Shown one piece after another: positions 1 to 15,032 of a stretch of 22,502 nt of DNA. The stretch's first letter is position 1. Each line of letters opens with the position of its first letter. The notes beneath the pieces were generated by a model. The model was not told the DNA's origin, did not search any database, and worked only from the letters and a program-made list of their open reading frames with translations. The stretch covers positions 1 to 22,502 of IMG/VR virus record IMGVR_UViG_3300012928_000047; one strand, written 5' to 3'. The translations under genes were made by a program, and so were the position numbers. The stretch comes from a virus.

Positions 1-27
1 ACCTGTTCTAGATGTATTCTGACGAGC

Positions 28-1074
28 TTATGAAGCAGCAGACTTGCGGCACTCAAACTCTTTTACAAGGTAGTTGACCTCACGATTGCTGGCATCGATG
101 AACTTACGGTAGTTCTTGTCAACGATAGAGAAGTCAATCTCTGTCTCTGTTCTCTCCGCATACTCAACCCAGAATGATTCGATGACTTTGCTTACAGATT
201 TGTGGTCAACAACAGCAATGTCAAGGTCAGGATCATCGATCTCGATGTAAGTAGGATTCTCGTATGCATCCTTGCTTGCTTGATTCTGAAGGTTGTCCTG
301 AAGTGCTGTATCTGTCTCTGCCTCTTCGATGTCATTCTGTTCGTAACTAGGAACATCAAGGTGTGCAGGGTCATCACCGTCGATACCCTGTGAATCAGTG
401 TCATCGTAGGTATACTCTTGCTCATCAGAGTCATTGTCACCAGGGTCAACCATGTCAACAGTTTGGTCGCCGCCAGACTGTGCACTTGCATCTTCTGGTG
501 CCTTCTGGTTCTCTTGCTGTTCCTTACGCTTCTGTTGCTCAAGGTCGTAGATGACACGAGCAGCGTCAACACAGTCAGAGAAGGTCTCACACTCGTCAAC
601 TAGGTCAACGTACTGCTTCTCATCGCTCTGGAAAGGAATCATTGCATATGTACCGATCTTGAAGTGAAGATTGATACGGTCGATGAGTTTCAGTCTAGAA
701 AGATCAGTGTTCTGAACGTTGAAGAAGTCACGCTCATGAAGGTGTTGGTATCCACGGTAGAAACACTTGGATAGACCAGGGAATTTATACTTCATCTTCT
801 TCTCAATACGAGCATCCTCAGTCACGTTCACGTATGAACGGGGGATGTCGCTAGGAATTGCCTCTTGCTCAGTAGTAGGAGTGTAGAGTGCGTGTCCTAC
901 CTCGTGACCGACGAGCAAATCATATGTATCGTTGTCAAGGTCTTTCCAGATAGGAAGGACAAGTACGCGACGGTCAACGTCAAACGAAGCAGTCTCACAC
1001 ACGCGGTGCTCCACTACAAGATTTTCGGTAGCAAGCAGTTTAGCGAGGGTACCTTTGATTTCTTGAGTGGTCAT
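28..1074 (-). CDS. VWA-type zinc metallopeptidase, N-terminal part, ended by an in-frame TAA
   Basis: The protein carries a zincin motif HEVGH (His57, Glu58, His61, numbered from the ATG at 1074), followed by a TEDAR segment whose Glu86 could be a third zinc ligand. A very acidic, Asp/Gln-rich linker covers about residues 195-265. This layout fits the large cyanophage peptidases that carry a C-terminal von Willebrand A domain, but that domain is not visible here. The frame could start 16 codons upstream, but MTTQEIKG is a more natural start. Translation ends at a TAA at 28-30. Past that stop the same frame stays open to the window edge and reads ARQNTSRTG, which resembles my memory of the family where a Tyr-Ala-Arg follows. 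The gene may therefore be broken by a point change or a sequencing error. The substrate is unknown. Confidence 0.75.
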   Translation of the reverse strand: MTTQEIKGTLAKLLATENLVVEHRVCETASFDVDRRVLVLPIWKDLDNDTYDLLVGHEVGHALYTPTTEQEAIPSDIPRSYVNVTEDARIEKKMKYKFPGLSKCFYRGYQHLHERDFFNVQNTDLSRLKLIDRINLHFKIGTYAMIPFQSDEKQYVDLVDECETFSDCVDAARVIYDLEQQKRKEQQENQKAPEDASAQSGGDQTVDMVDPGDNDSDEQEYTYDDTDSQGIDGDDPAHLDVPSYEQNDIEEAETDTALQDNLQNQASKDAYENPTYIEIDDPDLDIAVVDHKSVSKVIESFWVEYAERTETEIDFSIVDKNYRKFIDASNREVNYLVKEFECRKSAAS

Positions 1075-1349: not shown

Positions 1350-1488
1350 GTCCTAGGTACCTCTCTGGTTCTTTTAGTGAATCGATCATAAAATATGTGA
1401 TGGGAAATAAAATTAACGCACCGAGTATACAGGGTATAACGGGTTTGTTCAACATCACTCCGACATATTCTGCGATTTGTAGCATCAT
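1324..1488 (-). CDS. single-pass small membrane protein (54 aa)
   Basis: This gene was found by hand translation. It reads MMLQIAEYVGVMLNKPV and continues through one hydrophobic segment at about residues 16-34 (PVIPCILGALILFPITYF), then a charged tail ending GRRED. Two adjacent in-frame ATG codons (1488 and 1485) overlap the TGA of gp46, so translation is probably coupled to it. It also overlaps the next gene by 26 bases. The function is unknown; the arrangement with gene overlaps on both sides argues that it is a real gene. Confidence 0.6.
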   Translation of the reverse strand: MMLQIAEYVGVMLNKPVIPCILGALILFPITYFMIDSLKEPERYLGHGEGRRED

Positions 1489-3194
1489 TCTTCTGTCATC
1501 TGAGAGAAATCGTTCGGTTTATCAAAGGTCACAGTGCGATTAAACTTATCGAGAAGGATTTCGCCCTTATGACTGATGATAAACAGATTGGTATTGTCAC
1601 CCAGACCTTTCAAAATCTTGAATAGTTCGTCAGTTGCAGAACTATCAAGAGAAGAATCAAATACCTCATCAAGAATCAAGAGATTACAACTTGTACTGTT
1701 CTTAAGTTTGGCAATCGCTCGCCAAGTAAAGAGTAATGCAAGGTCAATCTTTTGTTTCTCACCTTCAGAAAAAGATGCATAGGAAAATACATCTCTAAAA
1801 CGTGATTTGATGACTTCATTGAACTCTTCGTCAAGTGTGAAGTTGACAAAGAAGTCCATTTCAGATAGGTATTTATTAATTTTTAAGTTGATGGTTGGAA
1901 TGAACTTATTAATGATCTTGGTTTTGATGCCACCATCCTTTAATAGGTTACCAACAACTTTTAGATTGTCAAACCTAGCACCAACCTGAGCACACTCTGC
2001 CTGTTTCTCATCTCTTGCTACTAGGAATGCGTTTAGACTATCACGTTCCTTGTCAACATTAGGCGTACCCTTGTTGAGTTCTTCTGTTAGACGATTGTTT
2101 TCCTTAGACAGGTTGTTCTCCTCGCGGAGCATGGAAGAAATCGTATAACGTTTGTCCGTGATGTCCATATTGATTGAATCAATAGTGGAGATCTGTGTGG
2201 TGATCAACTCTATTTTAGATTTTAGATCAGTTAACGCTGTATTGTATTTGAGGATACGCTCATTAAGTGTACCACACTGTTCTTCTTTCCATTTAGTATC
2301 AATGGTTTGTGAGCATGTGGGACACTCATCGTTATCGTTGTAGAACTTAAGATCTTTCTTTCCTTTACGGAAGTTGTAATTAATTTTACTCTGAAGTTCT
2401 TTGAGTTTTTCCATATTACTGGTCAGTTCCCCATGTTTCAGGGTTTCTGGTTCCAGTTTCATGATTGCAGTATCAAGTGCTGCTACCTCTGAATTGATTT
2501 CAGAGATACGTTGTAGATTTGCAGAGATCTTTTCCTGCTTTTCTTTATTATATTTGCCTGACTGTGCCTCTAATTGATCTATAAATGCTGTCTTTAGATC
2601 TACTTCCTTCTGTGCCATCTCCAACAGATGAGAGCAGTCTTTAATCTCTTCTTTAGTGTCCTTGACTCGATCTTTTAGGATCGCATTCATCCGCGAGAAG
2701 ACTTGAATGTCGAGAAGATCTTCGATAACCTCCCTTCTATGCGGAGCAGACAGTTGCATGAAAGGAACAAAAGTGCTACTACCAAGAATAACAACCTGAG
2801 TGAAAGACTTGAAGTTAAGTTTAAGTATGCTCTGCTCAAGGTATTTCTGATAGTCCTTGTTCGCGGCATCCTGATCGATAAGCGATCCGTTACGGTAGAT
2901 TTCAAATACATTGGGTTTGATACCGCGTATTACTTGGTACTCTACACTGCCGATTCGGAAATCAATCGAAACTACACATTCCTTTTCGTTTACACTGTTG
3001 ATCAGTTGACCCTTCTTAATCTGACGGAAGGGTTTATTAAACAAAACAAAGGTCAGTGCGTCTAGCATCGTGGACTTACCTGCACCGTTCCTACCAATCA
3101 CAAGTGTGGAAGGAGACTTTACTAGGTCAAGTTCAATAAAGTTATTGCCAGTGGAGAGAAAGTTCTTCCAACGCAATTTTTCAAATACAATCAT
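1485..3194 (-). CDS. 46: gp46 recombination endonuclease subunit, Rad50/SbcC-like ATPase
   Basis: In T4, gp46 and gp47 form a Rad50-Mre11-like nuclease that resects DNA ends for recombination-dependent replication and degrades host DNA. The 569-residue protein shows the family parts in order: Walker A GRNGAGKS at 34-41, a coiled-coil arm from about 180, a zinc-hook CPTC at 291-294, a second coiled-coil arm to about 400, the ABC signature FSEGEKQ at 475-481, Walker B LLILDE at 505-510 and the switch SHK at 541-543. Its length is close to T4 gp46 (560). The ATG overlaps the stop of the 94-residue gene by 4 bases (ATGA), and its own stop overlaps a small membrane protein gene. Confidence 0.97.
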   Translation of the reverse strand: MIVFEKLRWKNFLSTGNNFIELDLVKSPSTLVIGRNGAGKSTMLDALTFVLFNKPFRQIKKGQLINSVNEKECVVSIDFRIGSVEYQVIRGIKPNVFEIYRNGSLIDQDAANKDYQKYLEQSILKLNFKSFTQVVILGSSTFVPFMQLSAPHRREVIEDLLDIQVFSRMNAILKDRVKDTKEEIKDCSHLLEMAQKEVDLKTAFIDQLEAQSGKYNKEKQEKISANLQRISEINSEVAALDTAIMKLEPETLKHGELTSNMEKLKELQSKINYNFRKGKKDLKFYNDNDECPTCSQTIDTKWKEEQCGTLNERILKYNTALTDLKSKIELITTQISTIDSINMDITDKRYTISSMLREENNLSKENNRLTEELNKGTPNVDKERDSLNAFLVARDEKQAECAQVGARFDNLKVVGNLLKDGGIKTKIINKFIPTINLKINKYLSEMDFFVNFTLDEEFNEVIKSRFRDVFSYASFSEGEKQKIDLALLFTWRAIAKLKNSTSCNLLILDEVFDSSLDSSATDELFKILKGLGDNTNLFIISHKGEILLDKFNRTVTFDKPNDFSQMTEE

Positions 3195-4497: not shown

Positions 4498-4666
4498 AGG
4501 GGTACTCAATAACGATACGTCGTGACTCATTACCTCTTGAGTCTACCACAATTACCTCCGAAGCGGTACCCCCAACAAATTCACTTAACTGATCTATAAG
4601 TTCTGCCTTGCGGTCTGTGCACTTGTTACAGAGTTTACCACCCCAGTAGTCTGATGTATAACTCAT
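4475..4666 (-). CDS. small protein with one CxxC pair, unknown function (63 aa)
   Basis: No family is recognised. The N-terminal part contains Cys-Asn-Lys-Cys at 13-16, which could be half of a metal site, and the rest is a short helix followed by beta strands rich in Val and Ile. Its ATG shares a base with the stop of the preceding gene (TAATG), with GAGGG about 9 bases upstream. Its 3' end overlaps the gp47 start by 23 bases, so it is likely translated with gp47. Confidence 0.7.
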   Translation of the reverse strand: MSYTSDYWGGKLCNKCTDRKAELIDQLSEFVGGTASEVIVVDSRGNESRRIVIEYPYESPTNN

Positions 4667-7636: not shown

Positions 7637-8070
7637 CAAAAACCTGCTTCAAACTTTCTCAAATCAATGACGTTCTTGATTGTGTAACCTCGATTAGAGA
7701 TCTGTCTTAGAACGCCCTCTATGTAATATAGGCAAGTTTCAAGGTAGTCTATTTTCTGCTTTGCTTTGATCCACTCGTCATCGGCATAGACATACTTGTC
7801 TAGATCACCTTTGAGAACTTTGTGATCAAAAGGTTTTTCTTTATACACTGCTGCAGGTGACTTGCCTGCATAGTATTCGTACTTAAATTTTGTGACACGA
7901 CTAAGGTTCGCTGTCGCATCACTATGCATCAACTTAAATGTGCTATAGTATGTCATCCAGCGTTGATGGAGACCAGGCACAGCAAGTGCTTGATTAACTA
8001 AATCATGCTCATCAATAGGTGCATCCTCTGCCCATTGTTCTTGGATGCGCTCAAGGTTCAAGACTGCCAT
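7636..8070 (-). CDS. uvsY: UvsY recombination mediator
   Basis: UvsY loads the UvsX recombinase onto gp32-coated single-stranded DNA. The 144-residue product is close to T4 UvsY (137) in size. It shares with it the central YYAGK...KG region and especially the C-terminus, where RGYTIKNVIDLRKFEAG aligns with RGFAIKHIQDMRAFEAG as I remember the T4 protein. The ATG shares a base with the stop of the tail-tube-fold gene (TAATG), and its stop overlaps the uvsW start, so uvsY and uvsW are coupled. Confidence 0.93.
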   Translation of the reverse strand: MAVLNLERIQEQWAEDAPIDEHDLVNQALAVPGLHQRWMTYYSTFKLMHSDATANLSRVTKFKYEYYAGKSPAAVYKEKPFDHKVLKGDLDKYVYADDEWIKAKQKIDYLETCLYYIEGVLRQISNRGYTIKNVIDLRKFEAGF

Positions 8071-8636
8071 TATTCAAGTGCTTTATTACGAGAACCCTCC
8101 AGTGCTTGAATTTCGTAAGACCTATATCTAAATGTTACTGAGGCAGCAGCATATTCTGTGCCGTCTACCGTAGCATTAAAATCCAACGCACTAAGAGATA
8201 TTGGTATTATATCATAAAATACCACTTGGAAGTTGGATTTGAAGTTTGAGTTAAGGACAGTGAGAGTCGCATCAGCGAACTTTGTATCACCACCCTCTGC
8301 GTTATATGATAACTTTGCCTGCTTGTCTAGGAATTCTCTACGCTCACTAAAACGATCAGGCACACCAAGACCCCTGATCCAGTTGTGTAGGATCAGGTAA
8401 TTCTCAATGTTTTCATCCACGAGGAAATTCATGGTGAACGGGTCATAACTGATGTTACCATCAGTGGGTAGAGGTCTACCATACACAGTAGGTTGCTCTA
8501 CAATGCCCAGGTTGATTGCAGGTATATTAGCAGACTGAGAAAGGTACGCAATTTTTGGATACTTTGCCAGTATAAACTTGAACCCAATAGGACTCAAGAA
8601 GTTTTTATTAGCTATCTGGTTGTTCCACGTTGCCAC
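8070..8636 (-). CDS. tail-tube-fold virion protein (gp19/gp54-like)
   Basis: The 188-residue product has the pattern of tail-tube proteins: GFKFILAKYPKIAYLSQSANIPAINLG near the N-terminus, then PFTMNFLVDENIENYLILHNWIRGLG, and a C-terminal IPISLSALDF...VTFRYRSYEI. The C-terminal part resembles the end of T4 gp54, the baseplate tube initiator, and gp19 itself is encoded elsewhere (14337-15032). The product could be a tube initiator, a tube terminator or a second tube subunit. The start is GTG (GTG GCA ACG TGG), since no ATG fits the family N-terminus. A perfect TATAAATA lies 25 bases upstream, inside the preceding gene. Confidence 0.8.
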   Translation of the reverse strand: MATWNNQIANKNFLSPIGFKFILAKYPKIAYLSQSANIPAINLGIVEQPTVYGRPLPTDGNISYDPFTMNFLVDENIENYLILHNWIRGLGVPDRFSERREFLDKQAKLSYNAEGGDTKFADATLTVLNSNFKSNFQVVFYDIIPISLSALDFNATVDGTEYAAASVTFRYRSYEIQALEGSRNKALE

Positions 8637-9279: not shown

Positions 9280-10629
9280 TCACATGAGGTTGTCAACCAG
9301 TGTACGTCTGTAGTAACGGTTAGCGTTAGCGTTAAGAGCGCCACTACCTTGACCTGTACCCTCAGCGAAGGGGTTAGCGACCATACCATATCTGGTCTTG
9401 AAGCCAATTTTCGGTTGGAAGGTGTCCTGACCGACGGCACGTACCATCTGGAGGGGTACATATGGGCAGTAGAACAGTCCAGCGTCATAGGCAGAAGAAC
9501 CCTTATAACCAGCAACGTAGAAGTGACGGTCACTTACGTTAGCAGAGTAAGGATCAACATAAACCTTGATTCTACCGTTCAGAGTACCAGCAAGAGTGCT
9601 GCTGTTGTCATCAGGGAGAAGACCGCTGTTACCAGCAAGTGCAGGAGTGTAGTCCAGAACGCCAGCCATAGACAGTGCAGATGCAACGTCAGCAGAGCAG
9701 ATCAGGATGTTACCCTTTCCACGACGAGTCTCATGACCGATCGCGTTCATGTCTCTTTCGATTTGGAACAGAAGACCTTTGAACTTCTCAACCGACCATC
9801 TACCGTTGGAGTCAACGTCAAGGTCGAAGATACCAGCAGTTGCGGTATTGTTCTGAGCGCCAGGGCGAGCAATCTTGTAGACGGTTCTAACAACTTCTCT
9901 GTTGATCTCAGCGAGAACTTCAGTAGAAAGGATGTTAGCAAGTTCGCTCTCAGCGTCCAGACCGTGAACTGCCTTAAGGTCTTGTGCCAGTTCCAAACTG
10001 TACTCAGCTTTGAGGGCTCTGGACTTAGCAGTCACAGTAACCTTCTCAATGCTGAAGTTCATTTCAGCGAACTGGTTTCCAGCAGCGTCACCCAGTGCTT
10101 CTGCCTCAGCAGTAGGCATACCATCAGAGGTATTGTAGGTGCCACTATCGTTGAGCAGACCAGGGTTGGATCCTGCCTGAGCAGTTCTTCCAAGGTCGCT
10201 TGCTGCGTTCTCTGCGGAGAACTCGGTGTCTGCCTCGTTGAAGAATGCTTCGTTGGAGGTTCCAGTACGTGTTGTGCCGTAGCGTGAGCGCATTGCGAAG
10301 ATCAGTCCAGTAGGACCAGTCATCGGTTGAACGCCAGCGATGTCATAAGCAATCAGCTTAGGCATGCTACGTCTGATCAAGGAGATCAGCACAGGGTCGA
10401 AACCAGCAACAGGACCAGTTGCAGTGGAAGAACCACTAAAACCAGCGGTGCCAGCAGACATTGTAGGTGCGGCTTCAGTCAGCACACCTGCTTCCTCTTT
10501 GAGGAATTTTTCTTGGTTTTCGAGCAGGATAGAGGTGACAGCCTTTCTATACTTGTCGGAGATGTTATCAATCTCGGAGTGTTCCAGAATAGGTGCCCAC
10601 TTTTCCTGCAAAGATTCGGAATTGAACAT
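9280..10629 (-). CDS. 23: gp23 major capsid protein
   Basis: This is the HK97-fold subunit of the head hexamers. The 449-residue product has the gp23 N-terminus (MFNSESLQEKWAPILEHSEI), the conserved RSMPKLIAYDIAGVQPMTGPTGLIFAMRSRY block at about 98-128 and the C-terminal FQPKIGFKTRYGMVANPFAEG. T4 gp23 is 521 residues, and cyanophage versions are shorter. The N-terminal 52 residues are probably removed by gp21 after LTE (Leu50-Glu52). The gene ends at a strong terminator. An AAGG sequence lies about 10 bases before the ATG. No good late promoter octamer is visible directly upstream. Confidence 0.98.
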   Translation of the reverse strand: MFNSESLQEKWAPILEHSEIDNISDKYRKAVTSILLENQEKFLKEEAGVLTEAAPTMSAGTAGFSGSSTATGPVAGFDPVLISLIRRSMPKLIAYDIAGVQPMTGPTGLIFAMRSRYGTTRTGTSNEAFFNEADTEFSAENAASDLGRTAQAGSNPGLLNDSGTYNTSDGMPTAEAEALGDAAGNQFAEMNFSIEKVTVTAKSRALKAEYSLELAQDLKAVHGLDAESELANILSTEVLAEINREVVRTVYKIARPGAQNNTATAGIFDLDVDSNGRWSVEKFKGLLFQIERDMNAIGHETRRGKGNILICSADVASALSMAGVLDYTPALAGNSGLLPDDNSSTLAGTLNGRIKVYVDPYSANVSDRHFYVAGYKGSSAYDAGLFYCPYVPLQMVRAVGQDTFQPKIGFKTRYGMVANPFAEGTGQGSGALNANANRYYRRTLVDNLM

Positions 10630-14336: not shown

Positions 14337-15032
14337 TTATACCTGACTGTTCTTTTGAACAGCGTTACCAGCGTTGACATCATCTGCGAATGTCCAGAAC
14401 TGTACCTGGAATTCAACGGTGTACTCTTCAGGAGTATCGTTGTTATCCCATGCCAGATCGATTGCGCTAATGCTGCTAGGCCAGATGCCTTGGAAGGAGT
14501 ATGCCTTCTTCTGATCACCCTGTCTAGAATACTGACGCACGATAGCGTTAGACTGGTAGTCGCCAATTTCTTTGGCGTCTTGGATGTTCTGCTGCAAGTT
14601 CTGAATGCGGGATGCCCACTCTTCAAACTTGGTGCGAAGTCTAAACTCTTGATCGTTCAGCACTGTAACTGTCCAAGGTTCAAAGGTGCGGTCACCTGCG
14701 ATCTTGAGCATACGTCCTCTGTAAGGAACCTCGATAACACCGATGGTCGATGCGGGGAGGTTTGCTGCCTTCACAAGGAAGGTAGACATCATGTTTGATC
14801 CTGCGAGAGATTCAGGTGCGGCACCTGCTTCTTCTTGCTTTCTGTTTTCCGATGATCCGACGTTACCGCCGACACCAGGACGACCTGAGGATACTAACTC
14901 AGGGAATTGAATCTCCACTTGGAACAGATTAGGGCGAGCAAGATCTTCGATCTTGTCGCGGAAATTAAAGATGGGAGAGTCGATAAACCCACCTTCCACT
15001 TGTCCTGGAGATCTTCTACGTTGTTCAGCCAT
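14337..15032 (-). CDS. 19: gp19 tail tube protein
   Basis: This is the subunit of the inner tail tube. The 231-residue product has the tube pattern FNFRDKIEDLARPNLFQVEIQFPEL near the N-terminus, then FLVKAANLPASTIGVIEVPYRGRMLKIAGDRTFEPWTVTV and a C-terminal WPSSISAIDLAWDNNDTPEEYTVEFQVQFWTF. It is longer than T4 gp19 (163), partly through a Gly/Ser/Glu-rich insertion at about residues 49-80. It lies directly after gp18, as in T4. A CGGAG ribosome-binding sequence is 7 bases before the ATG. Confidence 0.95.
   Translation of the reverse strand: MAEQRRRSPGQVEGGFIDSPIFNFRDKIEDLARPNLFQVEIQFPELVSSGRPGVGGNVGSSENRKQEEAGAAPESLAGSNMMSTFLVKAANLPASTIGVIEVPYRGRMLKIAGDRTFEPWTVTVLNDQEFRLRTKFEEWASRIQNLQQNIQDAKEIGDYQSNAIVRQYSRQGDQKKAYSFQGIWPSSISAIDLAWDNNDTPEEYTVEFQVQFWTFADDVNAGNAVQKNSQV

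Follow-up and report, generated by a model that had tools for sequence, protein, structure and literature searches.

A probable single-base lesion at a metagenomic contig end interrupts a conserved cyanophage peptidase-VWA gene

The peptidase gene that runs off base 1 of the window (a whole linear IMG/VR metagenomic virus record of 22,502 bases, in which base 1 is a contig end) is interrupted by an in-frame TAA on the minus strand (28..30). This is most likely an isolated lesion, artefactual or real, at the contig end, with no new mechanism involved. The stop is really in the sequence, and both the frame and the homology continue past it. The contig end cuts through a conserved peptidase-plus-VWA gene following gp46, and, 28 bases in from that end, one T/C-to-A difference would turn a Tyr codon into TAA before the VWA domain. 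Taken as a joint reading, a single-base lesion of this kind (a tip error or minority variant, or a recent nonsense mutation) very probably accounts for the stop.

Translation of bases 1-1074 (minus strand) gives 348 residues from an ATG, ending KEFECRKSAAS, then the TAA at 28-30, then nine open codons reading ARQNTSRTG to the edge (1..27); the first-pass annotation had both the coordinates and the residues right. The 5' part of the gene (28..1074, minus strand) comprises a metallopeptidase-like half with HEVGH, an acidic linker and the start of an EVNYLVKEFEC motif. These 348 residues match positions 1-371 of the 736-position phrog_459 'peptidase' profile (E = 2e-115), and therefore about half of the length of phrog_459 is absent. 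The N-terminal metallopeptidase half with HEVGH is matched over its full length, and gp46 immediately precedes the gene in a T4-like order, both as in members of phrog_459. Its upstream neighbour encodes a gp46-like (SbcC-like) endonuclease subunit (1485..3194, minus strand); isolate genomes have the order gp47, small gene, gp46, peptidase gene, and so does the window. In phrog_459 a C-terminal VWA-like half with DWSGS would be expected in the same frame; the window shows nine homologous codons past the stop, and then the contig ends. The length of a 27-base open tail is meaningless by itself; what counts is its homology to relatives.

The window is a fragment of a T4-like marine cyanophage. 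We place the virus among the T4-like cyanophages because its major capsid protein (9280-10629) shares 92-94% identity with the capsid proteins of P-RSM6, S-WAM1 and P-TIM40. The peptidase (28-1074) reaches only about 44% identity with the best isolates listed, as against up to 94% for the capsid protein, and by this comparison the peptidase region looks either strongly diverged or derived from another lineage. Terminal repeats were looked for at the window ends and none was found. A DNA-level search of phage records with window bases 1-1500 returned no match, and a search with an exact pattern over the stop site, aimed at the same virus continuing past base 1, returned none either in a collection that may lack near relatives. 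Elsewhere in the window, the tail tube family phrog_45 is matched by two separate genes (8070-8636 and 14337-15032).

At the protein level, 462 phage records match the peptidase, almost all with less than 60% identity; the relatives are the peptidase genes of Synechococcus and Prochlorococcus myoviruses. The cyanophage (Kyanoviridae) 'peptidase' genes of phrog_459 share with the window the HEVGH half, the acidic linker and the EVNYLVKEFEC block, aligned over 348 residues, as well as the place after gp46. They differ in extending about 370 residues further, into a VWA domain, whereas the window has the stop and then the contig end. Closer relatives were found among IMG/VR contigs: six loci (L002-L007) are 74-78% identical and share the same block and frame at the site, and three more (L008-L010) are 58% identical. 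All nine differ from the window in having TAT or TAC where it has TAA, with the frame continuing; they read KSAASYARQ..SRTG or KSASSYARATTSRTG. This bears out the pattern given in the first-pass annotation, Tyr-Ala-Arg and then Ser/Thr-Arg-Thr-Gly, with a Tyr codon one base from TAA. The site corresponds to Y346 of L002, and the window tail ARQNTSRTG matches the ARQSVSRTG or ARATTSRTG of the nearest relatives.

The suggestion that the stop falls just before an expected VWA domain also holds, since relatives that are complete at the 3' end (717-721 residues) run in the same frame into a VWA domain with LDWSGSM. None of these complete relatives ends at the residue where the window stops. Among the closest loci, L002, L004, L005 and L007 are complete at 717-720 residues; in L003 and L006 the frame is still open where their contigs end. 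The proposed alignment to cyanophage peptidases likewise gave the anticipated result; in tblastn, residues 1-355 of the complete L002 protein (717 residues) align to bases 1074-1 at 77% identity, crossing the stop, which occupies a single internal column, and reaching base 1. Past the stop, the codons differ from those of relatives synonymously (e.g. AGA/CGT and ACA/ACT), and homology stays in frame to base 1, so the downstream codons have not decayed. Because these 27 bases still look coding, the change is either recent or not real.

Across 213 homologous loci, the site column contains Tyr in 210 and His in two, and a stop only in the window, although a pattern requiring Tyr was used to collect about 120 of the 213, which are hence not independent evidence on the site. 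The 80 loci whose retrieval did not depend on the site show 78 Tyr and two His. We also scanned viral contigs for the motif with TAR (TAA or TAG) in place of TAY. This gave seven matches, all in unrelated sequence and none of them a homologue, against at least 120 matches for the motif with TAY, nearly all homologues. Within the window, the TAR version occurs once, with 0 occurrences expected by shuffling. The peptidase gene of S-SKS1 (L141, 1511-3601, HQ633071.1) was considered as a second lesion and rejected; the site is unannotated but the gene is open as a 696-residue ORF, making this an annotation gap in the record.

Internal stops are rare in this gene. Among the 213 loci (147,473 aligned residues) there is one elsewhere (L117) and no frameshift; such lesions are therefore sporadic. 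On contig IMGVR_UViG_3300017706_000966, at about position 4631 on the + strand, a Tyr codon in the linker of the L117 peptidase gene is replaced by an isolated in-frame TAA, and a 97% identical locus (L128) is intact, with Tyr at this position. The two cases are alike in that an isolated in-frame TAA replaces Tyr in the peptidase gene with intact flanks, but L117 is affected at a different Tyr, in the linker, and in the interior of its contig. As Tyr codons are one base from TAA, two such cases need no special cause. Considered together, they suggest that natural phages may occasionally carry a broken peptidase gene.

Three causes had been offered for the stop in the first-pass annotation, namely programmed read-through, nonsense mutation and sequence error, of which we retain the last two. 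Programmed or suppressed read-through of the TAA, or its reassignment to Tyr in this phage, has in its favour only that the frame continues with homology past the stop and that L117 also has a TAA for Tyr, albeit at a different site. However, no relative shares a stop at this site, as a conserved read-through signal would have it, so read-through is unsupported, and TAA followed by G is not known to be a leaky context. Reassignment is similarly unsupported, because the nine other TAA-ended genes in the window, itself only a fragment, stop normally with short tails to the next stop, and because no tRNA genes were found in the window. We therefore regard read-through or reassignment as very unlikely. 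The broader idea that marine cyanophages repeatedly carry, and tolerate or suppress, a TAA for Tyr here (as in the window and L117), producing the peptidase half alongside the full-length peptidase-VWA protein, seems more improbable still. As the stop separates the peptidase half from the VWA domain, it could also be read as dividing the gene functionally into two, one for the peptidase and one for the VWA part. Yet the conserved EVNYLVKEFEC...YAR...SRTG block is itself interrupted by the stop, and all complete relatives examined have one unbroken gene, leaving us to give this split hardly any credence.

What has to be weighed, then, is whether the lesion is artefactual or real. The likelier cause is that the contig tip carries a sequencing or assembly error or represents a minority strain variant; the linear metagenomic record ends 27 bases past the stop, the stop is unique to the window among homologues at this site, and the window showed no further lesion. 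The remaining core genes have family matches and no detected break, while the only visible lesion falls in the last ten codons of the contig, which we estimate would happen by chance about 0.3% of the time for either end; this combination points to the tip. On the other hand, tips of related contigs show no significant excess of mismatches. In 54 pairs of related contigs, 55 of 1620 positions were mismatched in the last 30 bases (3.4%) vs 206 of 5400 in the preceding 100 (3.8%). For pairs with 99% identity or more, the counts were 3/630 vs 4/2100 (p = 0.20, not significant). A tentative but credible alternative is that a natural phage recently acquired a genuine nonsense mutation, which would leave it with a truncated metallopeptidase lacking the VWA domain. 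The codons downstream of the stop are still conserved, as for a recent change, and L117, with its interior TAA for Tyr on an independent contig and its intact relative L128, suggests that such alleles may exist. Against this, nearly all homologues keep the gene intact (147,473 residues contain just one further stop), and the window's stop sits right at the contig tip. Our preference for a contig-tip error over a real nonsense allele is only moderate, and as the tip test found no overall mismatch excess, it is argued from position only.

A real stop would be no more than an ordinary nonsense mutation affecting a known gene. The product would then be a 348-residue metallopeptidase half without the VWA domain, and the protein would probably be inactivated or uncoupled. 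Should such an allele also be common in the population, it would show that cyanophages can do without the VWA half of a protein that is widely retained. More generally, gene ends at the tips of metagenomic contigs should not be taken as real gene ends.

The complete peptidase-VWA protein is widespread in cyanophages, yet it has no Pfam or PDB sequence match; searches with the full-length L002 and L004 proteins gave no Pfam family above the cut-off and no solved structure by PDB sequence search. The region downstream of it was viewed in isolates at loci L011, L013 and L142. In S-CAM3 and S-SCSM1, CobS lies close downstream with one or two genes between, and P-TIM40 has an AAA/cbbQ-type gene in this place.
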